Below are positions 37,049 through 49,497 of a stretch of DNA of 64,000 bases, piece after piece (positions within the stretch are counted from its first letter, which is position 1; every line of letters starts with the position of its first letter). The position numbers and the translations under genes are program-made. The notes under the pieces are model-generated. The model saw nothing but the letters and a program-made list of their open reading frames with translations. It was not told the origin of the DNA and ran no database searches. The stretch comes from Gammaproteobacteria bacterium (GTDB lineage Bacteria > Pseudomonadota > Gammaproteobacteria > Natronospirales > REEB76). The DNA is taken from contig JAGWOR010000004.1 of assembly GCA_028870845.1 (NCBI GenBank), positions 1 through 64,000 of the forward strand, written 5' to 3'.

Positions 37049-38323
37049 TCAGTTACTCGGCTTTGGCAGCACCCCCGGTACGGCATGATCATCCCGGGCA
37101 GCGCGTTTCTGTGCATACATGGAACGGTCGGCCTCGTGAAGTGCGATCTCGATGTTATCCGCGTTGCTGAAATCCGCGGTACCAAGGCTGGCCCGTAACG
37201 GGATGAGCGCCCCGTTGTCGTTTAATTTGAGCGATGGAGCGGTTGCGATGAGTTCCTGAATGCGCGGACCCGCGATGCTTGACAGCGCACGCGGCATTAC
37301 CACCAGAAATTCATCACCACCGAGGCGGTAAAGCTTATCCGAAGGCCGCAAACCGGCGCGCAATACCGAGGCAAAATACTGGAGCAGCGCGTCGCCATAT
37401 TTATGGCCGTATTTATCGTTCACATCCTTGAGATTGTCCATGTCTAGAACCACCAGGGTTCCATAAGTCCCGCGGGCGTCCTCCAAGCCGGCCCCCTCGT
37501 TGAAGGCGCGGCGGTTATAGGCACCCGTCATGGAGTCCAGCAAGGACTCCCGTAACAGTTGTTCATGGGCGATACGCAGTTCGCGATGCGCGGTATCGAG
37601 CTCGCGGTTGGCATCTTCAAACAGCACCAGCACCATGCCAAATGCCAGCAGCATGCACGCCGTCAGATCAAGATAATTATTCGGCCCCGCCAGCAGCCGT
37701 GCCAGGTTCAGACCAATGTGCACTGCGGGAGTTACCTCCCCCAGCAGCAACGGCAGGTATACCAGCCACAGCACCAAAGTGGCGGCCAAGACGATGCCGG
37801 TGGTGCGCGTACCCAGGCTACGGCGTGGAGCCGGCAGATTCAGGATGGCCACCGTGCAGAACGAATACACCACCACGTTGCATAAACCTTGCCAGAACAT
37901 GAGGGCATGCAGGCTGGGTGAAAATACCACCGATATCAGCGTCACTGCTCCGATCAAGGCCCAAAGCCAGCGCATGACGCCCATGAACTGATAAGACATA
38001 CCCTTGAGATAGAGCAGCGTGCCCTGCAAAAGCAGGGCTATAAAAGCGAGCTTGCAGAACTGATAGACGAAATAGCAGATCTTGACCCAGACTCCGGTCT
38101 CAAAACCCGGGCCAATAACTACAGGAAATACGTAGAAGCGCGCTACCAGGGCCAACAAGGCGATGGAGTAGGCCAGCCAGGCGTTGCTCCAGGCGTAAAA
38201 GTACGGACGCCGACCGGCGTGCCGCCTCAACAGCATGAAAAGCATGACCAGCAGAAAAACTGCCGCCATCTGGCTGATAAGCCCGAAACTCATCAGCATT
38301 TGTGTACCAGCGCTGTCGTTCAC
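37049..38323 (-). CDS. Membrane-anchored diguanylate cyclase (GGDEF)
   Basis: About 424 residues. Six or more hydrophobic helices fill residues 10-240, then a short coiled coil (VLFEDANRELDTAHRELRIAHEQLL) leads into the GGDEF domain. Catalytic RLGGDEFLVVMP is intact and a canonical I-site RPSD lies five residues upstream, so this should be an active, product-inhibited cyclase making c-di-GMP. The start is a GTG at 38323 with AAGGAG about twelve bases upstream; an ATG eight codons later is an alternative. It is divergent from the GGDEF-EAL gene, across 231 bases containing a large inverted repeat. Confidence 0.87.
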   Translation of the reverse strand: MNDSAGTQMLMSFGLISQMAAVFLLVMLFMLLRRHAGRRPYFYAWSNAWLAYSIALLALVARFYVFPVVIGPGFETGVWVKICYFVYQFCKLAFIALLLQGTLLYLKGMSYQFMGVMRWLWALIGAVTLISVVFSPSLHALMFWQGLCNVVVYSFCTVAILNLPAPRRSLGTRTTGIVLAATLVLWLVYLPLLLGEVTPAVHIGLNLARLLAGPNNYLDLTACMLLAFGMVLVLFEDANRELDTAHRELRIAHEQLLRESLLDSMTGAYNRRAFNEGAGLEDARGTYGTLVVLDMDNLKDVNDKYGHKYGDALLQYFASVLRAGLRPSDKLYRLGGDEFLVVMPRALSSIAGPRIQELIATAPSLKLNDNGALIPLRASLGTADFSNADNIEIALHEADRSMYAQKRAARDDHAVPGVLPKPSN

Positions 38324-38439
38324 CCCCGAAATCTGCTCCTTGCCGGAAAGCTACCGTCGTCGGAGCCATAGGGTACCAGCCTTGACATACCTGACATAAT
38401 ACCCTCAGGACTCCACCCATCGGCAGAATCATGCCGTTG

Positions 38440-38490
38440 GTGCCAATGTAAACACTGGACAGTGGGGTGGTGTTTCTGCAAACTTGGCAC
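38440..38490. promoter_or_regulatory. Long interrupted inverted repeat between two divergent c-di-GMP genes
   Basis: The arms GTGCCAA-n-AAACAC and GTGTTT-n-TTGGCAC face each other across about 14 bases, in the gap between the divergent GGDEF and GGDEF-EAL genes. It could be a shared operator or an RNA stem in one leader. No T-run follows it. Confidence 0.3.
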
Positions 38491-38554
38491 ATGTCACTAT
38501 ACATAAGGTGACCTGCCAGCCCTCTACAGAAGAGGCGCTGGGAAACCGGGAGGC

Positions 38555-40573
38555 TTGATGGCAATTGCCACCATGGCGGATTCGCATGTACCGAGCCGCG
38601 ACGTCGGGCTATTGGTCAGGGCGGAACTCACCAATCTTCTGTTTGACAATACCCGGGGAACCCATCTGGCGGCGGTTATCGTCGCGGCGCTACTGGTGGC
38701 GCTGGCTTGGCATACCTCCGTAAATCAACTGGCGCTCTCGGCCTGGCTGGCCGGCATGCTGGCGCTGGAAACCGCCCGTGGACTGCTGAACCGGCGTTTC
38801 CGCTACCTGCGCATCGACGGCATGAACGCGGCCCTTTGGGAACGGCGTTTCCTGGTGGGTAATGCCCTGTCCGCCTGCGGCTGGGGTGTGGCCGGGGCAT
38901 TACTGTTTCCATCCGGGGATGTAGCCCACCAACTCTTCCTGGCCACCATCATTATGTCCGCCTGCGCCCTGGCGATGCCGGCCCTGTCGCCTTCCCTCAA
39001 AAGCTACGCGGTGTTCATCTCGCTGGCGGGGCTGCCGCTGATAATCCGGCTGCTGCTAACTTTCCATGCCCTGCAGACCGCCGCCGCACTGCTGGCAGTG
39101 GTCATGTCGGCCTTGCTGTTGCGAATGTCGATGGGCATGCACAAACGTCTGGTAGACCAGCTCAATACACGCTTCGCATTCGCGGATATTGCGGATGAAT
39201 TGCGTGCTGAGATGGCCGACCGCAAACGCGCTGAAGAACAACTGACACAGCTTGCGAACTTTGACTCACTCACCGGCTTGCCTAACCGGACATTATTCGA
39301 ACAAAAGCTCGGCAATGCCATCAAGCGTGCACGCCGTGGTGATGCACAGCTGGCGGTACTGTTCGTTGACCTGGACAGGTTCAAGCACATTAATGATTCA
39401 CTCGGACACCAGACCGGTGACCTGGTTTTAAAACGTGTTGCACAGAGGTTGAAACGCTGTATCAAGGATCGCGACACTGTGGCCCGCCTATCCGGAGATG
39501 AATTCATCGTGCTGGTGGAGCACGTGGACAAGCGCAGGGATATTGAACACCTGGCGGAACGCATATTGCGAACCCTGGCCAAACCCATGCTGCTGAGCGA
39601 GACCGAATTGCGCGTAACCGGCAGCGTCGGGATTACCCTGCTGGCTGCGGACAGTCCGGATGCCAAAAGCCTGCTCGCCAATGCCGACACGGCCCTGTAC
39701 CGGGCCAAGCACCGCGGCCGGAATAGCTATCAGTTTTTCACCCCGGACATGCATGAAGCTGCGCTCAAGCGCCTGAAACGCGAGGTGGAATTGCGCAAAG
39801 CATTGACCCGCGGCGAGTTGGTGCTGCACTACCAGCCGCTGTTCGACGTCCTGAAAGGCGAAATCATGGGTTTGGAAGCGTTGCTGCGCTGGCACAGCCA
39901 GGAATTCGGCCTGGTTGGACCTGCCGAATTCATACCTTTGGCCGAGGAAACCGGCCTCATCATCCCGATCGGGGAGTGGGTCTTACGCGAAGCCTGCAGG
40001 CAGGCGGTGCAGTGGCGCAACGTCTATGGTGCCGAGTTCCACATGGCGGTTAACCTCTCAGCACGCCAGTTCACAGTACCGGACCTGGCCAGCACCGTGG
40101 GACGGATACTCGGTGAAAGCGGCCTTCCGCCGCAGGCCTTGATCCTGGAAATCACCGAGAGCGTCGCCCTCAGCAATGAAGCCAGCAACCTCGAGGAACT
40201 GGTCAAGTTGCGCAGCATGGGCATCAGCCTGGCGCTGGATGATTTCGGCACCGGTAACTCTTCGCTGGGCTATCTCAAGCGCTTTCCGATCGACGTGCTC
40301 AAACTGGATCGCAGCTTCGTGCACGATGTGGCCTTGAATCATGAGGACGCGGCGGTGGCACGTGCCACCATCAAGCTCGCCAATTCACTCGGCCACCGGG
40401 TGGTTGCCGAAGGCGTGGAAAACGCGGACCAGCTGGAATGGCTACAAATGGAAAGCTGCGCACTCATCCAGGGTTTTTTACTGAGCGAACCACTGGATGC
40501 GCATTCCTGCGAAAAACTTATGACCGCGCATGCCTGGGGCAGGCTCCCTCCGGGTTCAGTAAAAGTTAACTAG
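38555..40573 (+). CDS. Membrane GGDEF-EAL dual-domain c-di-GMP protein
   Basis: A 672-residue protein with about six N-terminal helices (residues 30-200), a GGDEF domain and an EAL domain. The cyclase motif is ARLSGDEF. SGDEF variants can be active, but the upstream I-site is absent, with KDRD where RxxD is expected. The EAL domain keeps EALLRW, the NLSARQF loop, LDDFGTGNSSL, KLDRSF and EGVE, so phosphodiesterase activity looks intact. Net effect is probably c-di-GMP breakdown, possibly gated by the GGDEF domain. It faces the cyclase gene at 37049 divergently, pairing a maker and a breaker. Confidence 0.9.
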   Translation: MMAIATMADSHVPSRDVGLLVRAELTNLLFDNTRGTHLAAVIVAALLVALAWHTSVNQLALSAWLAGMLALETARGLLNRRFRYLRIDGMNAALWERRFLVGNALSACGWGVAGALLFPSGDVAHQLFLATIIMSACALAMPALSPSLKSYAVFISLAGLPLIIRLLLTFHALQTAAALLAVVMSALLLRMSMGMHKRLVDQLNTRFAFADIADELRAEMADRKRAEEQLTQLANFDSLTGLPNRTLFEQKLGNAIKRARRGDAQLAVLFVDLDRFKHINDSLGHQTGDLVLKRVAQRLKRCIKDRDTVARLSGDEFIVLVEHVDKRRDIEHLAERILRTLAKPMLLSETELRVTGSVGITLLAADSPDAKSLLANADTALYRAKHRGRNSYQFFTPDMHEAALKRLKREVELRKALTRGELVLHYQPLFDVLKGEIMGLEALLRWHSQEFGLVGPAEFIPLAEETGLIIPIGEWVLREACRQAVQWRNVYGAEFHMAVNLSARQFTVPDLASTVGRILGESGLPPQALILEITESVALSNEASNLEELVKLRSMGISLALDDFGTGNSSLGYLKRFPIDVLKLDRSFVHDVALNHEDAAVARATIKLANSLGHRVVAEGVENADQLEWLQMESCALIQGFLLSEPLDAHSCEKLMTAHAWGRLPPGSVKVN

Positions 40574-43260: not shown

Positions 43261-43887
43261 TTAGTAGACCGGCCGGCCGTCGTAGGGCTGCGAGCAGCTT
43301 TGCCGCCAGTGCCAGTTGTCAGCGTAAGCTTTCGCCAGTTGCGGGGCATTGCGGATATAAAGCAGGTTTTCCGCGTTATCGTACTCGGCCGAGTAGGTGA
43401 AATTATACGAACCTGTGATCACATCCTTATCATCCAGGATCATAACCTTGTTATGGGCAATATTGACCTTACTGTCCACCCATACCGGTATATGCTCGGC
43501 TCGAATTACCGAAGCTACCGGCTTATGTCCTTCATAAGGCTGGGTGTCGGTCTTATCCACAATCACACGCACGTCAATGCCGTGTGACATGGCTTTTCCC
43601 AGGGCCGAGATGATGCGCCGGTTCGTGAAACTGTAGGCCTGCACCAGGATTTCATGTTGCGCCGCAGCAATTGCACGGAGTATCAACCGCTCAGAATCCC
43701 CTGCGGGTGAAAAAACCACCATTACCCGGGCACCGTCCAGTGCCATACTGGATTGCGGCGGATGCGGCAAACCGCAGGCACTGGAGAGTGGGCCGCCGTT
43801 CAGCACCAGGTTCTGAGTCCAGCCAGACAGGGGCGCGGCCAAACTCGCCAGTATCAAAATTTTGAGCATTTGTCTGGCGCGGATCAT
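43261..43887 (-). CDS. Phospholipase D-like nuclease, Nuc/Zuc type
   Basis: About 208 residues with a signal-like N-terminus (LKILILASLAAPLSG) and one HKD motif, AHNKVMILDD, followed by GSYNFTYSAEYDNAEN (GSxNF). A single HKD copy with this size is typical of Nuc-type PLD endonucleases that act as dimers and are often exported. It follows the degenerate GGDEF gene on the same strand (39 bases apart). The start at 43887 (ATG) is preferred to the TTG at 43893; a further ATG at 43872 is possible. Confidence 0.82.
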   Translation of the reverse strand: MIRARQMLKILILASLAAPLSGWTQNLVLNGGPLSSACGLPHPPQSSMALDGARVMVVFSPAGDSERLILRAIAAAQHEILVQAYSFTNRRIISALGKAMSHGIDVRVIVDKTDTQPYEGHKPVASVIRAEHIPVWVDSKVNIAHNKVMILDDKDVITGSYNFTYSAEYDNAENLLYIRNAPQLAKAYADNWHWRQSCSQPYDGRPVY

Positions 43888-43925
43888 AAGCAATGCCGGT
43901 CCTTGGCTGAGGAGGATGTTGCGAG

Positions 43926-45224
43926 TCAGGCGGTTCTGGCGGCTTGCGATCTTGGCAGAATTTCGGTTCTGTCGGCACTCGGGGCTTTTTCCTGGATGGC
44001 CTTGCCATCTCCGGAAGCGGCATCCCTATCGCTGACGACGCAATTGCGCCCGCGGTTCTTGGCCAGAAACAGCAGTGTTTCCGTGGCCAATAGTCCGCTT
44101 GCCGGACTTTGATTGCGCGTTGGGATGAGGGTGTGCACGCCGACACTCACAGTCACAGTCCATCCGGCAGGGGATGCCGGATTCATCAGATTCAGGCTTT
44201 CAATATCCTGCCGCAGCCGTTCGGCGATGGTCCTACCGTGACGTTCGCCGCAGGCGTACAACAGCACCATGAACCTGCCGCCTTCGTAACGCGCGGCAAT
44301 ATCGCCCGGACGCTTGCGGTAATGCTGGATAACGGCGCCCAGCTTGCGCAGGCAGATATCGCCGATGTTGCGCCCCAGATGCTGGTTCAAGTGCTGCAGG
44401 TAATCCACATCCACCAGCATCATTGTCAGCTCGACCTTGTCGCGTTGCGCCCTGGCCCAGGTATTGGCGTAAAAGTCATCCAGATGCCTGCGATTAGCAA
44501 GCCCGGTGAGTTCGTCCACGCCTGCCAACTCGACGATTTCGTCGCTCAACAGCCGCACCATCCGGCCATGCAGGAAACTGCGGCGCGCTTCCTTTTCCAT
44601 ACGGTAGCAGGCGTATAAAGCCACCAGATTAACCACGGCCAGCAGCAAGGCCAGATTGCCAAAGGTGGCAGTGGAAAGCTGGTTTAGAAATGCGCCGGCT
44701 AGATACAGCCCGGTTACCAACAGTGCGCAAGGAAGCGCATATGCGACACGCATGCTGGATACCACATAACAATAGAACAAGATAACAATCAGGCTGGTGC
44801 TGTAATTTCGGGCGGCGAGCTGCGGATGCAGGAACATGATCACACCCGAACCGGTGCCGGCCGCCAATATCGCCGCGGCATAAATCAGTTGCAAGGCAGC
44901 ATCGCGCTTTGCCCAGAATGCCGCCAGCATGCTGACCACAATCACAGGTGCTACCAATGCATAACGCACCAGCCAAAGGTTGTTGCGGACAGCCGTCTGC
45001 AGTTGCAGATCTGCCAGGCCTGTCAGCAGGTAGAGCAGCAGGCCGAACACCAGAGTAGCGCGGATGCGCTTGCGGTAGCGGTGGGCGTAATTCAGCCGGA
45101 ACAGTCTTTCCAAGGCGTCCGGAAAATTGGACGTGAAGGTCTGCTTGTCCAGCAGCCGTGCCACCTCCTGTTTCTCATTGAGGTCTGAGGTACTGGATGA
45201 AGCGGTTTGCGCTGTATTCGCCAT
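43926..45224 (-). CDS. Membrane protein with degenerate GGDEF domain and intact I-site
   Basis: About 432 residues: a cytoplasmic head, six hydrophobic segments (about 55-210), then a GGDEF-fold domain. LTGLANRRHLDDF and VDVDYLQHLNQHLGRNIGD mark the fold, but the active-site motif reads YEGGRF instead of GGDEF and the substrate helix has lost conserved residues. The I-site RPGD, five residues upstream, is intact. It therefore cannot make c-di-GMP by the known mechanism, but could still bind it. The ATG at 45224 is preferred over the GTG two codons earlier. It sits downstream of the histidine kinase gene in the same direction. Confidence 0.85.
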   Translation of the reverse strand: MANTAQTASSSTSDLNEKQEVARLLDKQTFTSNFPDALERLFRLNYAHRYRKRIRATLVFGLLLYLLTGLADLQLQTAVRNNLWLVRYALVAPVIVVSMLAAFWAKRDAALQLIYAAAILAAGTGSGVIMFLHPQLAARNYSTSLIVILFYCYVVSSMRVAYALPCALLVTGLYLAGAFLNQLSTATFGNLALLLAVVNLVALYACYRMEKEARRSFLHGRMVRLLSDEIVELAGVDELTGLANRRHLDDFYANTWARAQRDKVELTMMLVDVDYLQHLNQHLGRNIGDICLRKLGAVIQHYRKRPGDIAARYEGGRFMVLLYACGERHGRTIAERLRQDIESLNLMNPASPAGWTVTVSVGVHTLIPTRNQSPASGLLATETLLFLAKNRGRNCVVSDRDAASGDGKAIQEKAPSADRTEILPRSQAARTA

Positions 45225-45511
45225 GTTCACAACCCAGTCGGTAAAAATTGCACAGAATCACCCGGCAGCGCGAGGCTGCTTTGCCACTACCACGGTATGT
45301 GCATGACGGACCCCGGGCATGACAGGCAAGTGGAAATCTGCCTGCTCCGAACCAATACATTACTCAAAAAGCCCTGAATAGTCGATTATGTATAATTACG
45401 GAAAATCCCTATGGCCCGCTCCCAGCCACCTGGTGCCGCGCAGCCCATGATTTTCAGGCACATGGGCCCTGCTAGGCCCCGGGACAGCGCCTGGCGCGTG
45501 TAATCAGGCAC

Positions 45512-48349
45512 TCAGGTCATTGGCATTTCGATGTGCACCTGCGTGCCTTTGCCCGCTTCTGAGGAGATTTCAAACGTACCGCCCACCAGGCGTATGCGCT
45601 CCTCCATACCCAGAATGCCCAAACTCTTGCCGTGCAAGGCGGCTTTGCGGGCCGTTTCCACATCGAACCCCCGACCATCGTCTTGGATATCCAGCACCAA
45701 ATTGCCCTCGAACTGCTGTAGAGACACCCGTACCATGACGGCATTTGCGTGGCGCTGCACGTTGGTAAGCACTCCCTGCAAAACCCGGAAGCACGCGGTT
45801 TCCTTCACCGCGCTGAGGCGCGGGAGGCTTCTGTCCACACTGAGCGCAACTCTTGTTCCAGTGGTTTCCACCCGTTCCCGGATATACCAGCGGATCGCTG
45901 CCACCAGGCCCAAATCGTCCAGAACCGAAGGTCGCAGGCTCAGGGACATGGCGCGCACCTGCTGGGTCAGCTCGGTGATTATGCCGGAGGCGTGTTTTAC
46001 CTGGGCCACCAGTGTTTGGGTGCCGGCTTTTTCCTCAAGATTCTTGAGGCTGAGCAATGTCGCCGTCAGCCCCTGTCCCAGCTCATCGTGAAGTTCACGC
46101 GCCAAGCCGCGGCGCTCTTCTTCTTGTGCATCCAGAATCCGGGCGGAGAGTTGCTGCAACTCATTCATATATTTCAGTGCAAGTTTTTCTGCCTGAATTC
46201 GCTCCGTCATATCGACGCCCATGCCCACCACGCAATCCTGCCCGCGCCATTCAAACCCCCTAGCCACAAAGAAGTAAGGAATGCGCCTGCCGTCCTTACA
46301 GTGCAGCTCGGTCTCGCCCTCCACACCTTTGCCTTTCAAAATCTCCGCAACCACCTTCCAGTGGTTGGCACGGCGATCCGGAGGCAAAATGTCGGCAGAG
46401 GTAATGCGGCCCATTTCCTCCGCATCATAGCCGGTAATTTGCTCCATTTGCCGGTTCCATCGCAGGAACTTTCCCTTGGCATTGAACACGTAAAATATGC
46501 CCGGCAGAGTTTCAATGGAATGGAACACAAAATTGCGCTCTTCGGCAAAAAGCTGCTCGGCTTTGACACGCTCGCTGACATCGTTGATAACGATCTGGAT
46601 GTTTAAAGTATCCAGCCGTAATGCATTGACATCCACCGGGATAATCTTGCCGCTCTTGTGGCGCAAGCTTGATTGAAAGCTTATATTCTCACCGACTCCC
46701 AGGGTCTGAACTCTTTCTATCTTGGATTTGTCGGCAACCAACGCAGCGATTTTCATATCAAGGAGTTCGCTCCGGCTGTAGCCGCACATCCGGCACAGTG
46801 CCTGGTTGGCAAAAATGATCTCGCCGGTTGGCCTGCGCAGAAGTATTCCCAGCATGGAATTTTCCACCAGCGCACGATATTGACGTTCGCTGTTCTCGAG
46901 TTCCTGCCGAGCCTTAAGACGCTCGCTGATATCATGTTGAATGGATTGTATGTCGCCATTACTGAGACGCTTGACGCTGACTTCGACGGGTATGTCGTGG
47001 CCTTCGCGGTGACGCATCCAAGCCTCGAAACGCAGTGATTCGCCGACCTGCAAGCGCTGCCTCCACAAATTTGATTCGTCCACAATGTGCGTGAAACGAA
47101 GCTTCAACAATTCATCACGGCGATAACCCAGCATCTGGCAAAGCGCATCATTCACGAAAACCAGCACGCCATTTACATGCCGGACTATGATTCCATCGGC
47201 GGCCTGCTCCACCAGCTCCAGATAGCGCTGTTCGCTCACCTCCCTGGCCTGTTCCGCGGTATACAAGGCGGCTATTCGTGACTCCAGATTTTCCGCCATG
47301 CCGTCGACGCCATTGGCAATGGCACCAATCTCACCGGCCATCGAATCAAAACCTGTGCGAGCGTGCCAGTCACCGGAACCAAGACGGCGCAGGGTGTTCA
47401 ACAGCGGCTGAATGCGTCTGGAGACGAATGTTGTGGAAGCCCACCAGGTACAAAGCAGGATAAACAGGGCAATACCGGTGATCAGCGCCAAATCCCGTAA
47501 CAATGGGATAAATGCCAGCTTCTCGAGCAGGCTCTGGTCAATGCCACTGGAGATATAGATGCCTGAATCCGGGACATCGGTGGGAATGTAGCGCGATGTA
47601 TATAGCCGCATCCTGCCATCCAGACCTGGGAGGATGCGCCTGATACCGCGCTTCCCGGAGGATACTGCCTTGAACAGCTCGGAATTTGACTGATTGGTAC
47701 CGTTCAGCTTTTCGCCATTCGGGTAATGCAGCAATGTCGTTCCATTGGGAGTGAATACGGTGATATCGGCGTAACGTTGCAAGTTAGTTTCATCCGAGGG
47801 CGGCAGCAGCACATTCGGGGACGCAACCGCATCCACTGTGCCGGTGAAGCTGCCATCCTTCGCGAACCTGGGCATTGAGAACACCAGCAGGCCGACATGC
47901 AGGATACGTCCCTTGGCGACCACCCCGGCGACGAACTGCTGAGTTGCCGCCACCCGCTCGAACCAGCGGCGATCACCCAGATCAACCTGAGAGGTAAGCG
48001 TCGAAGTACTGCAGACAATAACCCCAGCGGCGGAAAGCACATCAAGGCTTTTATAAAGCGGCATTTGCGCAAGCAGCGCAGTCAGGCGTTTGGAGCATGC
48101 AGATTCCGGCGCATCGATGGTCGAGGATGCCGCCAGTACCGACAAAACATCATGGCTTCTGGATACCAGGTTGTCGTAACGGCCGACGACTGCGTCGTTT
48201 GTCAGCTTGCTTACGTAATAGCCGTAATCAACCGAGGTTTTGTAGCGTTCAACCGCGGTATAAATAACCAATGCCATGGGTGGCAAAGTACAGATAACCA
48301 CCAACAGCATCAGACGGGCACGTAGGCTTGCAGGCCAAAACGGTTTCAT
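45512..48349 (-). CDS. Multi-PAS NarL-type sensor histidine kinase
   Basis: About 945 residues. Two membrane helices (about 13-33 and 290-310) flank a periplasmic sensor region of the double-Cache kind. A HAMP segment, then three PAS domains (about 375-490, 495-610, 620-740), and finally HisKA_3 with RGLARELHDELGQGL and an HATPase with NVQRHANA, DDGRGFD and GILGMEER. It belongs to the NarX/UhpB/DesK group that phosphorylates LuxR-type regulators. The regulator gene lies directly upstream (314-base gap), same strand. ATG at 48349 preferred over TTG 48355. The signal is unknown. Confidence 0.88.
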   Translation of the reverse strand: MKPFWPASLRARLMLLVVICTLPPMALVIYTAVERYKTSVDYGYYVSKLTNDAVVGRYDNLVSRSHDVLSVLAASSTIDAPESACSKRLTALLAQMPLYKSLDVLSAAGVIVCSTSTLTSQVDLGDRRWFERVAATQQFVAGVVAKGRILHVGLLVFSMPRFAKDGSFTGTVDAVASPNVLLPPSDETNLQRYADITVFTPNGTTLLHYPNGEKLNGTNQSNSELFKAVSSGKRGIRRILPGLDGRMRLYTSRYIPTDVPDSGIYISSGIDQSLLEKLAFIPLLRDLALITGIALFILLCTWWASTTFVSRRIQPLLNTLRRLGSGDWHARTGFDSMAGEIGAIANGVDGMAENLESRIAALYTAEQAREVSEQRYLELVEQAADGIIVRHVNGVLVFVNDALCQMLGYRRDELLKLRFTHIVDESNLWRQRLQVGESLRFEAWMRHREGHDIPVEVSVKRLSNGDIQSIQHDISERLKARQELENSERQYRALVENSMLGILLRRPTGEIIFANQALCRMCGYSRSELLDMKIAALVADKSKIERVQTLGVGENISFQSSLRHKSGKIIPVDVNALRLDTLNIQIVINDVSERVKAEQLFAEERNFVFHSIETLPGIFYVFNAKGKFLRWNRQMEQITGYDAEEMGRITSADILPPDRRANHWKVVAEILKGKGVEGETELHCKDGRRIPYFFVARGFEWRGQDCVVGMGVDMTERIQAEKLALKYMNELQQLSARILDAQEEERRGLARELHDELGQGLTATLLSLKNLEEKAGTQTLVAQVKHASGIITELTQQVRAMSLSLRPSVLDDLGLVAAIRWYIRERVETTGTRVALSVDRSLPRLSAVKETACFRVLQGVLTNVQRHANAVMVRVSLQQFEGNLVLDIQDDGRGFDVETARKAALHGKSLGILGMEERIRLVGGTFEISSEAGKGTQVHIEMPMT

Positions 48350-48669
48350 TCGCAAGCATTCACTTCGTTTGATGACCGAACATTGAACCCAAAAATTCCC
48401 GGTTTCTATACACTTTCAAGCACGGTGGCATCACTATCACAGGCTCGACGCGCCGAAAACGCCGGTAGAGTTATTCCCAAAGATTCACAGAAATTTTATC
48501 AGTGATTGCCGGCATGATTTGGCGGCAGGGCCAGTAATTCCATCTGACCTGGGGATATAGTCGCTGGTATCAAATATTTCACCTTGGCGGCACCCGTTTA
48601 CAGCCGATTGCCCGGATTACAGGTGAATAACCATCGAATTCTGAAACCGCAGGCTGGAGCAGCAAGCGC
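48350..48669. other. Intergenic region between response regulator and kinase genes
   Basis: About 320 bases with no credible gene; the small ORF at 48579 overlaps the regulator gene in antisense and has no support. The length suggests the kinase has its own promoter. I see no recognisable operator. Confidence 0.4.
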
Positions 48670-49314
48670 CTATTTATTCGAGAGCGGGGACAGGCGTGCC
48701 GCATAATGTACGAGTGCCATGGCATTTGGAATCCCCAGCCGCTCCATAAGCTGTGTACGGTGGCTTTCAACGGTTTTGACGCTAAGCTTGAGTTCGAAAG
48801 CGATCTGCTTAACGTTCTTGCCTTCCGAGATCAGTTGCAGGATCTGCTTTTGTCTCGGAGTCAGCTGTTTATGCTGTGCAGGTTTACCCACCGCCTGGCC
48901 GAAATAATCGTCCAATACACCTTTGGAGATTGCGGCACTGAGAAACACGCTGCCGTGCGATACCGCCTCAATCGCCAGTTTCAGTTCATCCGGGGTCGCT
49001 TCTTTCAGCACATAAGCCAAAGCTCCGGAACTCAAAGCCTGCATTACGTACTCATCGTTAGCGTGCATGGAAAGTATGATCACGCGGATGTCAGGATGTT
49101 CTGCATGAATCTGCGAAGTGGCCTCCAAACCGTTTACTTCGCCCATGGCCAGGTCCAGGATCATGATGTCCGGATGCAGCTTGCCGGCCAGTTCCACCGC
49201 TTCTTTGCCGCTAGAGGCCTCAGCAACCACTTCCACCCCGGTCATAGTTTGCAGAAGCTTGACCAGACCAGCACGGAATATTGCATGATCGTCAGCGAGT
49301 ACAACCCTGATCAT
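48670..49314 (-). CDS. LuxR/NarL family response regulator
   Basis: A 214-residue regulator. The receiver domain has the acidic pair ADDH at residues 8-9, phospho-acceptor D54 (MILDLAM), and the switch lysine in VLKEAT. The C-terminal LuxR helix-turn-helix is LTPRQKQILQLISEGKNVKQIAFELKLSVKTVESHRTQLMERLG. The ATG at 49314 is about six bases after AGAGGTGG; an earlier ATG at 49320 is directly adjacent to the SD and less likely. It pairs with the multi-PAS kinase encoded downstream. Confidence 0.92.
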   Translation of the reverse strand: MIRVVLADDHAIFRAGLVKLLQTMTGVEVVAEASSGKEAVELAGKLHPDIMILDLAMGEVNGLEATSQIHAEHPDIRVIILSMHANDEYVMQALSSGALAYVLKEATPDELKLAIEAVSHGSVFLSAAISKGVLDDYFGQAVGKPAQHKQLTPRQKQILQLISEGKNVKQIAFELKLSVKTVESHRTQLMERLGIPNAMALVHYAARLSPLSNK

Positions 49315-49497
49315 CCGCATCCACCTCTGTGGCAATTATCGATACTGCCGATACCACCGCCGGGTTTCAGTATATCGCATGAATAAAACAAATATGCGTT
49401 TTTCAGCTAGCATTAGCCGCAGATACAGCCGGCGGCCTGCATGCCCCAGTTGCATGAGCGCTCCAATACCGCAACCTCGTTTACAGGCACAAGCAGC

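Follow-up and report, generated by a model that had tools for sequence, protein, structure and literature searches.

Previously described degenerate GGDEF proteins

Degenerate GGDEF domains are listed as an effector class in reviews. SgmT of Myxococcus xanthus carries the signature GGGVF, with a glycine at the metal position, together with an RHPD I-site, a secondary arginine, and a link to a histidine kinase; its binding of c-di-GMP has been shown and is lost in the R763A variant (PMC3509222). CdgI of Escherichia coli combines a degenerate A-site with an intact I-site, and the purified protein binds c-di-GMP (PMC5635695). YdaK of Bacillus subtilis is a membrane protein whose degenerate GGDEF domain binds c-di-GMP via I-site residue R202 (PMC7064775), and PopA of Caulobacter has a degenerate A-site, an RxxD I-site, and a link to receiver domains. 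In WspR, R242 and R198 hold c-di-GMP, and a variant in which both signature acids are changed has been described as lacking catalysis. The same paper reports, from unpublished data, that the GGAAF form of WspR retains ligand binding (PMC2270323); I-site binding can thus survive loss of the signature. Glycine and valine at the same two signature positions are cited in the SgmT paper as inactivating WspR (PMC3509222).

The gene described here lies in a gammaproteobacterial DNA stretch of 64,000 nucleotides, the window. Judged from its sequence, the protein falls among the I-site-type degenerate GGDEF receptors, having the fold, an apparently dead signature, RxxD, and counterparts of PleD R313 and R390. 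The mechanism that we propose is known from PopA, SgmT, CdgI, and YdaK. A preliminary description of this DNA named PelD and PopA as precedents; PopA fits as an I-site-type protein, but PelD is not the closest, and SgmT, CdgI, and YdaK match better. Membership in the PelD group was ruled out, as Pfam gives neither a GAF nor a PelD-type GGDEF match. There are no pel genes among the annotated neighbors.

There are also differences from each of these systems. The GGDEF domain of SgmT is fused to a cytoplasmic hybrid kinase without membrane helices, and SgmT has lost the residues at the K442 and R446 positions (PleD numbering) that are kept in the present protein. CdgI, likened here by its published description, has an N-terminal domain in common with DgcT/DgcX. 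YdaK has four membrane helices and works with an exopolysaccharide operon. In PopA the receivers are fused (REC-REC-GGDEF), whereas here the receiver is a separate gene in three relatives and is absent in the window species; Pfam identified no N-terminal receiver domain of the PopA/PleD architecture in the protein. ImcA of Pseudomonas aeruginosa (PA1851; PDB 8wcn) also carries a single GGDEF domain after six membrane helices but is an active cyclase. WspR, the closest solved GGDEF protein by sequence, has the same RxxD and partner arginine but is an active soluble response regulator with GGEEF.

Gene and predicted fold

The gene and its main parts are located as follows.

43926..45230, minus strand: gene for the degenerate GGDEF membrane protein, 434 amino acids (based on the ORF, PF00990, and six same-genus orthologues)
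44043..44522, minus strand: GGDEF domain (Pfam match in the genome search)
44595..45119, minus strand: six predicted membrane helices, residues 38 to 212 (AlphaFold2 secondary structure and the structural match to ImcA, a six-helix cyclase)

The ORF was previously delimited as 43926 to 45224, in the correct frame but with a shorter end: position 45224 is an in-frame ATG two codons into the gene, and the ORF that starts with GTG reaches 45230. GGDEF (PF00990; residues 237 to 396; E = 8.6e-32) is the only Pfam domain, with no GAF domain or any other Pfam family in the protein. A promoter and terminator scan around the gene gave no signal above chance.

An AlphaFold2 model computed from a 29-sequence alignment has a mean pLDDT of 87.7. 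The predicted chain begins with a short helix, continues with six helices of membrane type and a coiled linker, and ends in a GGDEF fold in which strands flank the signature turn on either side. The six membrane helices proposed earlier are thus borne out by the model. Foldseek ranked full-length ImcA first and WspR next and also returned PleD and several c-di-GMP-bound GGDEF structures; the nearest solved chains by sequence are WspR proteins. The ImcA match extends over 391 columns with an rmsd of 6.2 Å. By sequence, the N-terminal 233 residues, which include the membrane part, gave no match to ImcA.

Two motifs outside any known domain are common to the orthologues, EKQEVARLL (residues 19 to 27), which is invariant, and DxTxxLP in the C-terminal tail. 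These could possibly be docking sites.

Altered signature and retained I-site

The translation contains RPGD-IAARY-EGGRF and DVDYLQHLNQHLGRNIGD, as originally read. Positions in PleD numbering were derived from an alignment with WspR, and the following sites were located.

44271..44285, minus strand: degenerate signature EGGRF, residues 316 to 320; (E/A)GG(R/K)F in all seven family members
44358..44411, minus strand: metal- and guanine-binding stretch with D274, N282, and D291 (PleD D327, N335, and D344), kept in 7/7
44301..44312, minus strand: primary I-site RPGD, residues 307 to 310 (PleD R359xxD362), with R and D kept in 7/7
44451..44453, minus strand: R260, supporting I-site arginine (PleD R313, WspR R198; role from WspR), kept in 7/7
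44217..44219, minus strand: R338, supporting I-site arginine (PleD R390), kept in 7/7

HMMER places EGGRF opposite the WspR GGEEF and RPGD opposite the WspR RxxD, which confirms both the replaced signature and the canonical position of the I-site noted at the outset. The roles of the individual residues are taken from what is established for PleD and WspR, with E370 as the metal-binding, catalytic residue. The first signature glycine is Glu or Ala, the E370 position is Gly in every orthologue, and the E371 position is Arg or Lys, also without exception; GG[DE]EF with both acidic residues, the mark of an active diguanylate cyclase, is thus absent. Further changes in the substrate region are a variable K332, F331 to Leu, and H340 to Arg. 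On present knowledge, the replacement of E370 by Gly and of E371 by Arg or Lys excludes two-metal catalysis, and the loss of GTP cyclization by the known mechanism, as first proposed, is well supported by these substitutions together with those at K332 and H340. The description of the substrate helix as degenerate stands only in part: K332, F331, and H340 are changed, but the metal-binding Asp is there, as are both residues that contact guanine. Overall, D327, N335, D344, and K442 are kept in all seven proteins and R446 in six. The EGGRF signature with its basic residue at a catalytic position and the kept nucleotide pocket are distinctive points of the protein, and the pocket is a concrete, testable peculiarity.

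The complete I-site set (R359, D362, R313, and R390) is present in 7/7 orthologues. Among the 117 canonical GGDEF relatives collected, RxxD occurs in 82%, R313 in 63%, R390 in 48%, and all four residues in 27%. RxxD is therefore the ancestral state and by itself weak evidence. That all four residues persist in seven species whose catalytic residues are gone is moderate evidence for a receptor.

Orthologues, selection, and distribution

The six orthologues all belong to the same genus and are 54 to 70% identical. Because they share both the altered signature and the I-site, the gene represents a maintained state rather than decay or a sequencing error; seven open orthologues under purifying selection rule out a pseudogene. 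Invariant positions make up 59% of the GGDEF domain versus 23% of the membrane part. The dN/dS ratio, computed for two close orthologue pairs, was ~0.11 for the GGDEF domain and ~0.27 for the membrane part in G010/G007 and ~0.04 and ~0.42, respectively, in G001/G008. Purifying selection is thus stronger on the GGDEF domain than on the membrane part. The conserved stretches of the linker and GGDEF domain in the orthologue alignment include regions away from both sites.

No family members outside the genus were found among the matches listed from a pattern-seeded scan of 84,980 species genomes or by a profile scan of a sample of 369 genomes of the class, and the family is apparently genus restricted. 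In a FastTree phylogeny of GGDEF domains, the seven orthologues group with one degenerate paralogue from G004 (support, 0.986). This sister paralogue (L037:3467-4810, minus strand) has the signature AGTTF and has lost R359 and R313, and it retains all five nucleotide-pocket residues (D327, N335, D344, K442, and R446). The tree and these residues indicate a single degenerate clade in which the I-site was kept in one branch and lost in the other, with the nucleotide contacts present in both.

Gene neighborhood

The neighboring elements in the window are as follows.

45512..48355, minus strand: PAS histidine kinase (HisKA_3), probable functional partner (Pfam; neighbor in 5/7 species)
48670..49335, minus strand: LuxR-type response regulator of the same cluster (Pfam)
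45231..45511, minus strand: 281-nt gap between the kinase and GGDEF genes; occupied by a stand-alone receiver in three relatives and by none here (tblastn)
43261..43893, minus strand: PLD-like nuclease gene, downstream neighbor (PF13091; adjacent only here and in G009)

The position of the gene downstream of a histidine kinase gene was described correctly, both being on the same strand. The PLD-like nuclease gene mentioned with it does adjoin on that strand, but the arrangement is not general, occurring in 2/7 species. This rules out the nuclease as an integral partner, and its vicinity looks incidental.

Three relatives (G010, G007, and G004) carry a histidine kinase gene, then a stand-alone receiver gene and the degenerate GGDEF gene, the last two close together on the same strand. 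In the window species and G009, the kinase directly precedes the degenerate GGDEF gene and the PLD-like gene follows; the G009 kinase is split across two contigs. A tblastn search with the relatives' receivers identified no receiver or receiver remnant in the 281-nt gap. Association of the family with kinase/receiver modules is therefore frequent. The kinase link is not obligatory, since no kinase orthologue was found in G001 or G008, both of which carry the degenerate GGDEF gene. The G001 copy lies after a deletion scar (L034:7255-8160, plus strand) that unites the start of a kinase gene with the end of a GGDEF-EAL gene and encodes a histidine kinase N terminus fused in frame to an EAL domain.

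G006 (L168), in which no copy of the degenerate GGDEF gene was found, has the array corresponding to this scar in intact form, with kinase, LuxR-type regulator, receiver, and PAS/GGDEF/EAL protein. Stand-alone receiver gene pairs were also identified in L170 (G002:C22) and L169 (G003:C17), with similar matches at G005:C70. The receivers of these pairs are ~56 to 58% identical to the one beside the degenerate GGDEF gene, which is itself absent there. The G002 pair adjoins the enoyl reductase (FabV-type) gene that is also found beside the locus in G004, G007, and G010.

Less than 7 kb from the gene, at 37049 to 40573 of the window, there are a canonical GGDEF gene (RLGGDEF, with an RPSD I-site) and a GGDEF-EAL gene (SGDEF); both have counterparts in G009 contig L033, the GGDEF one only partial there. 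Genes for c-di-GMP turnover thus cluster in this region. The genome-wide matches (11 GGDEF, 6 EAL, and 5 PilZ) indicate that a c-di-GMP network exists, so the ligand should be available.

Possible functions

The protein is probably a c-di-GMP receptor in the membrane that is connected to a kinase/receiver module. This is the best single explanation, and it fits proven precedents. The receptor would have originated from a WspR-like diguanylate cyclase. c-di-GMP made by the other cyclases of the cell would bind to the I-site as an intercalated dimer and change how the GGDEF domains are arranged. The coiled linker would relay this change either to the membrane part with its six helices or to a partner bound to the protein. 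That partner would usually and probably be the neighboring PAS histidine kinase, with the stand-alone receiver where present, and the c-di-GMP level could tune or place the two-component pathway, much as in SgmT and PopA. The match of the predicted fold to WspR and to c-di-GMP-bound GGDEF structures counts for this reading. Against it, the domain that holds the I-site residues is 59% invariant in any case, and the sister paralogue in G004 has lost the I-site arginines.

The strong conservation of the linker and GGDEF domain, also away from either site, would fit a ligand-free scaffold for which another GGDEF protein, the kinase, or the receiver is only a dimerization or docking partner. Degenerate GGDEF domains of E. 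coli form strong heterologous contacts (PMC5635695), and the gene order is linked with a kinase and a receiver. We nevertheless consider such a scaffold unlikely, since it would alone leave the retention of all four I-site residues in 7/7 orthologues unexplained. The active-site pocket is about as well kept as the I-site, so selection may act on nucleotide binding there. The old active site could then be a nucleotide sensor that controls the protein by holding GTP or a related guanine nucleotide such as ppGpp without turnover, with the I-site as a passive leftover or second input. The sister paralogue, which keeps the five pocket residues without the I-site arginines, points in this direction; GTP-sensing GGDEF domains are known from a review, and PleD structures with (p)ppGpp exist in the PDB. 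Nonetheless, Glu or Ala in place of the first signature glycine, Gly at E370, and the variable K332 should weaken GTP binding, and five kept residues within a domain that is 59% invariant are modest evidence, which makes a nucleotide sensor rather unlikely.

Both sites could also be in use, the I-site reading c-di-GMP and the old active site, in which a basic residue replaces a catalytic acid but most contacts to base and phosphate persist, holding GTP or (p)ppGpp without turnover. Such a dual sensor seems improbable; if it existed, one membrane protein would integrate both signals and report to the kinase/receiver module. That the protein is still a cyclase acting through an unorthodox active site is very improbable. 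Most substrate contacts are kept, and one divergent signature, AGDEF, is reported to be active (PMC3974145), but that exception retains both acids, whereas all seven proteins here have Gly followed by a basic residue, and comparable changes inactivate WspR (PMC3509222, PMC2270323).

The receptor reading would add an apparently genus-restricted family to the degenerate GGDEF receptors, one in which the catalytic residues were lost and the I-site was retained over a measurable evolutionary span. The sister paralogue, having lost both, provides a natural contrast. If the binding is real, c-di-GMP would be linked to a histidine kinase/receiver cluster by a separate membrane protein and not by a fused domain; the separate receiver gene beside the degenerate GGDEF gene in three relatives is a further distinctive point.

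The sister paralogue gene in G004 has a PilY1 gene on one side and the minor pilin genes GspH, PilW, and PilX on the other, and its product is possibly a type IV pilus regulator. Other degenerate GGDEF domains outside the family, in L021, L063, and L097, keep RxGD and have the signatures DGTRF, SEGGF, and GNSRF.
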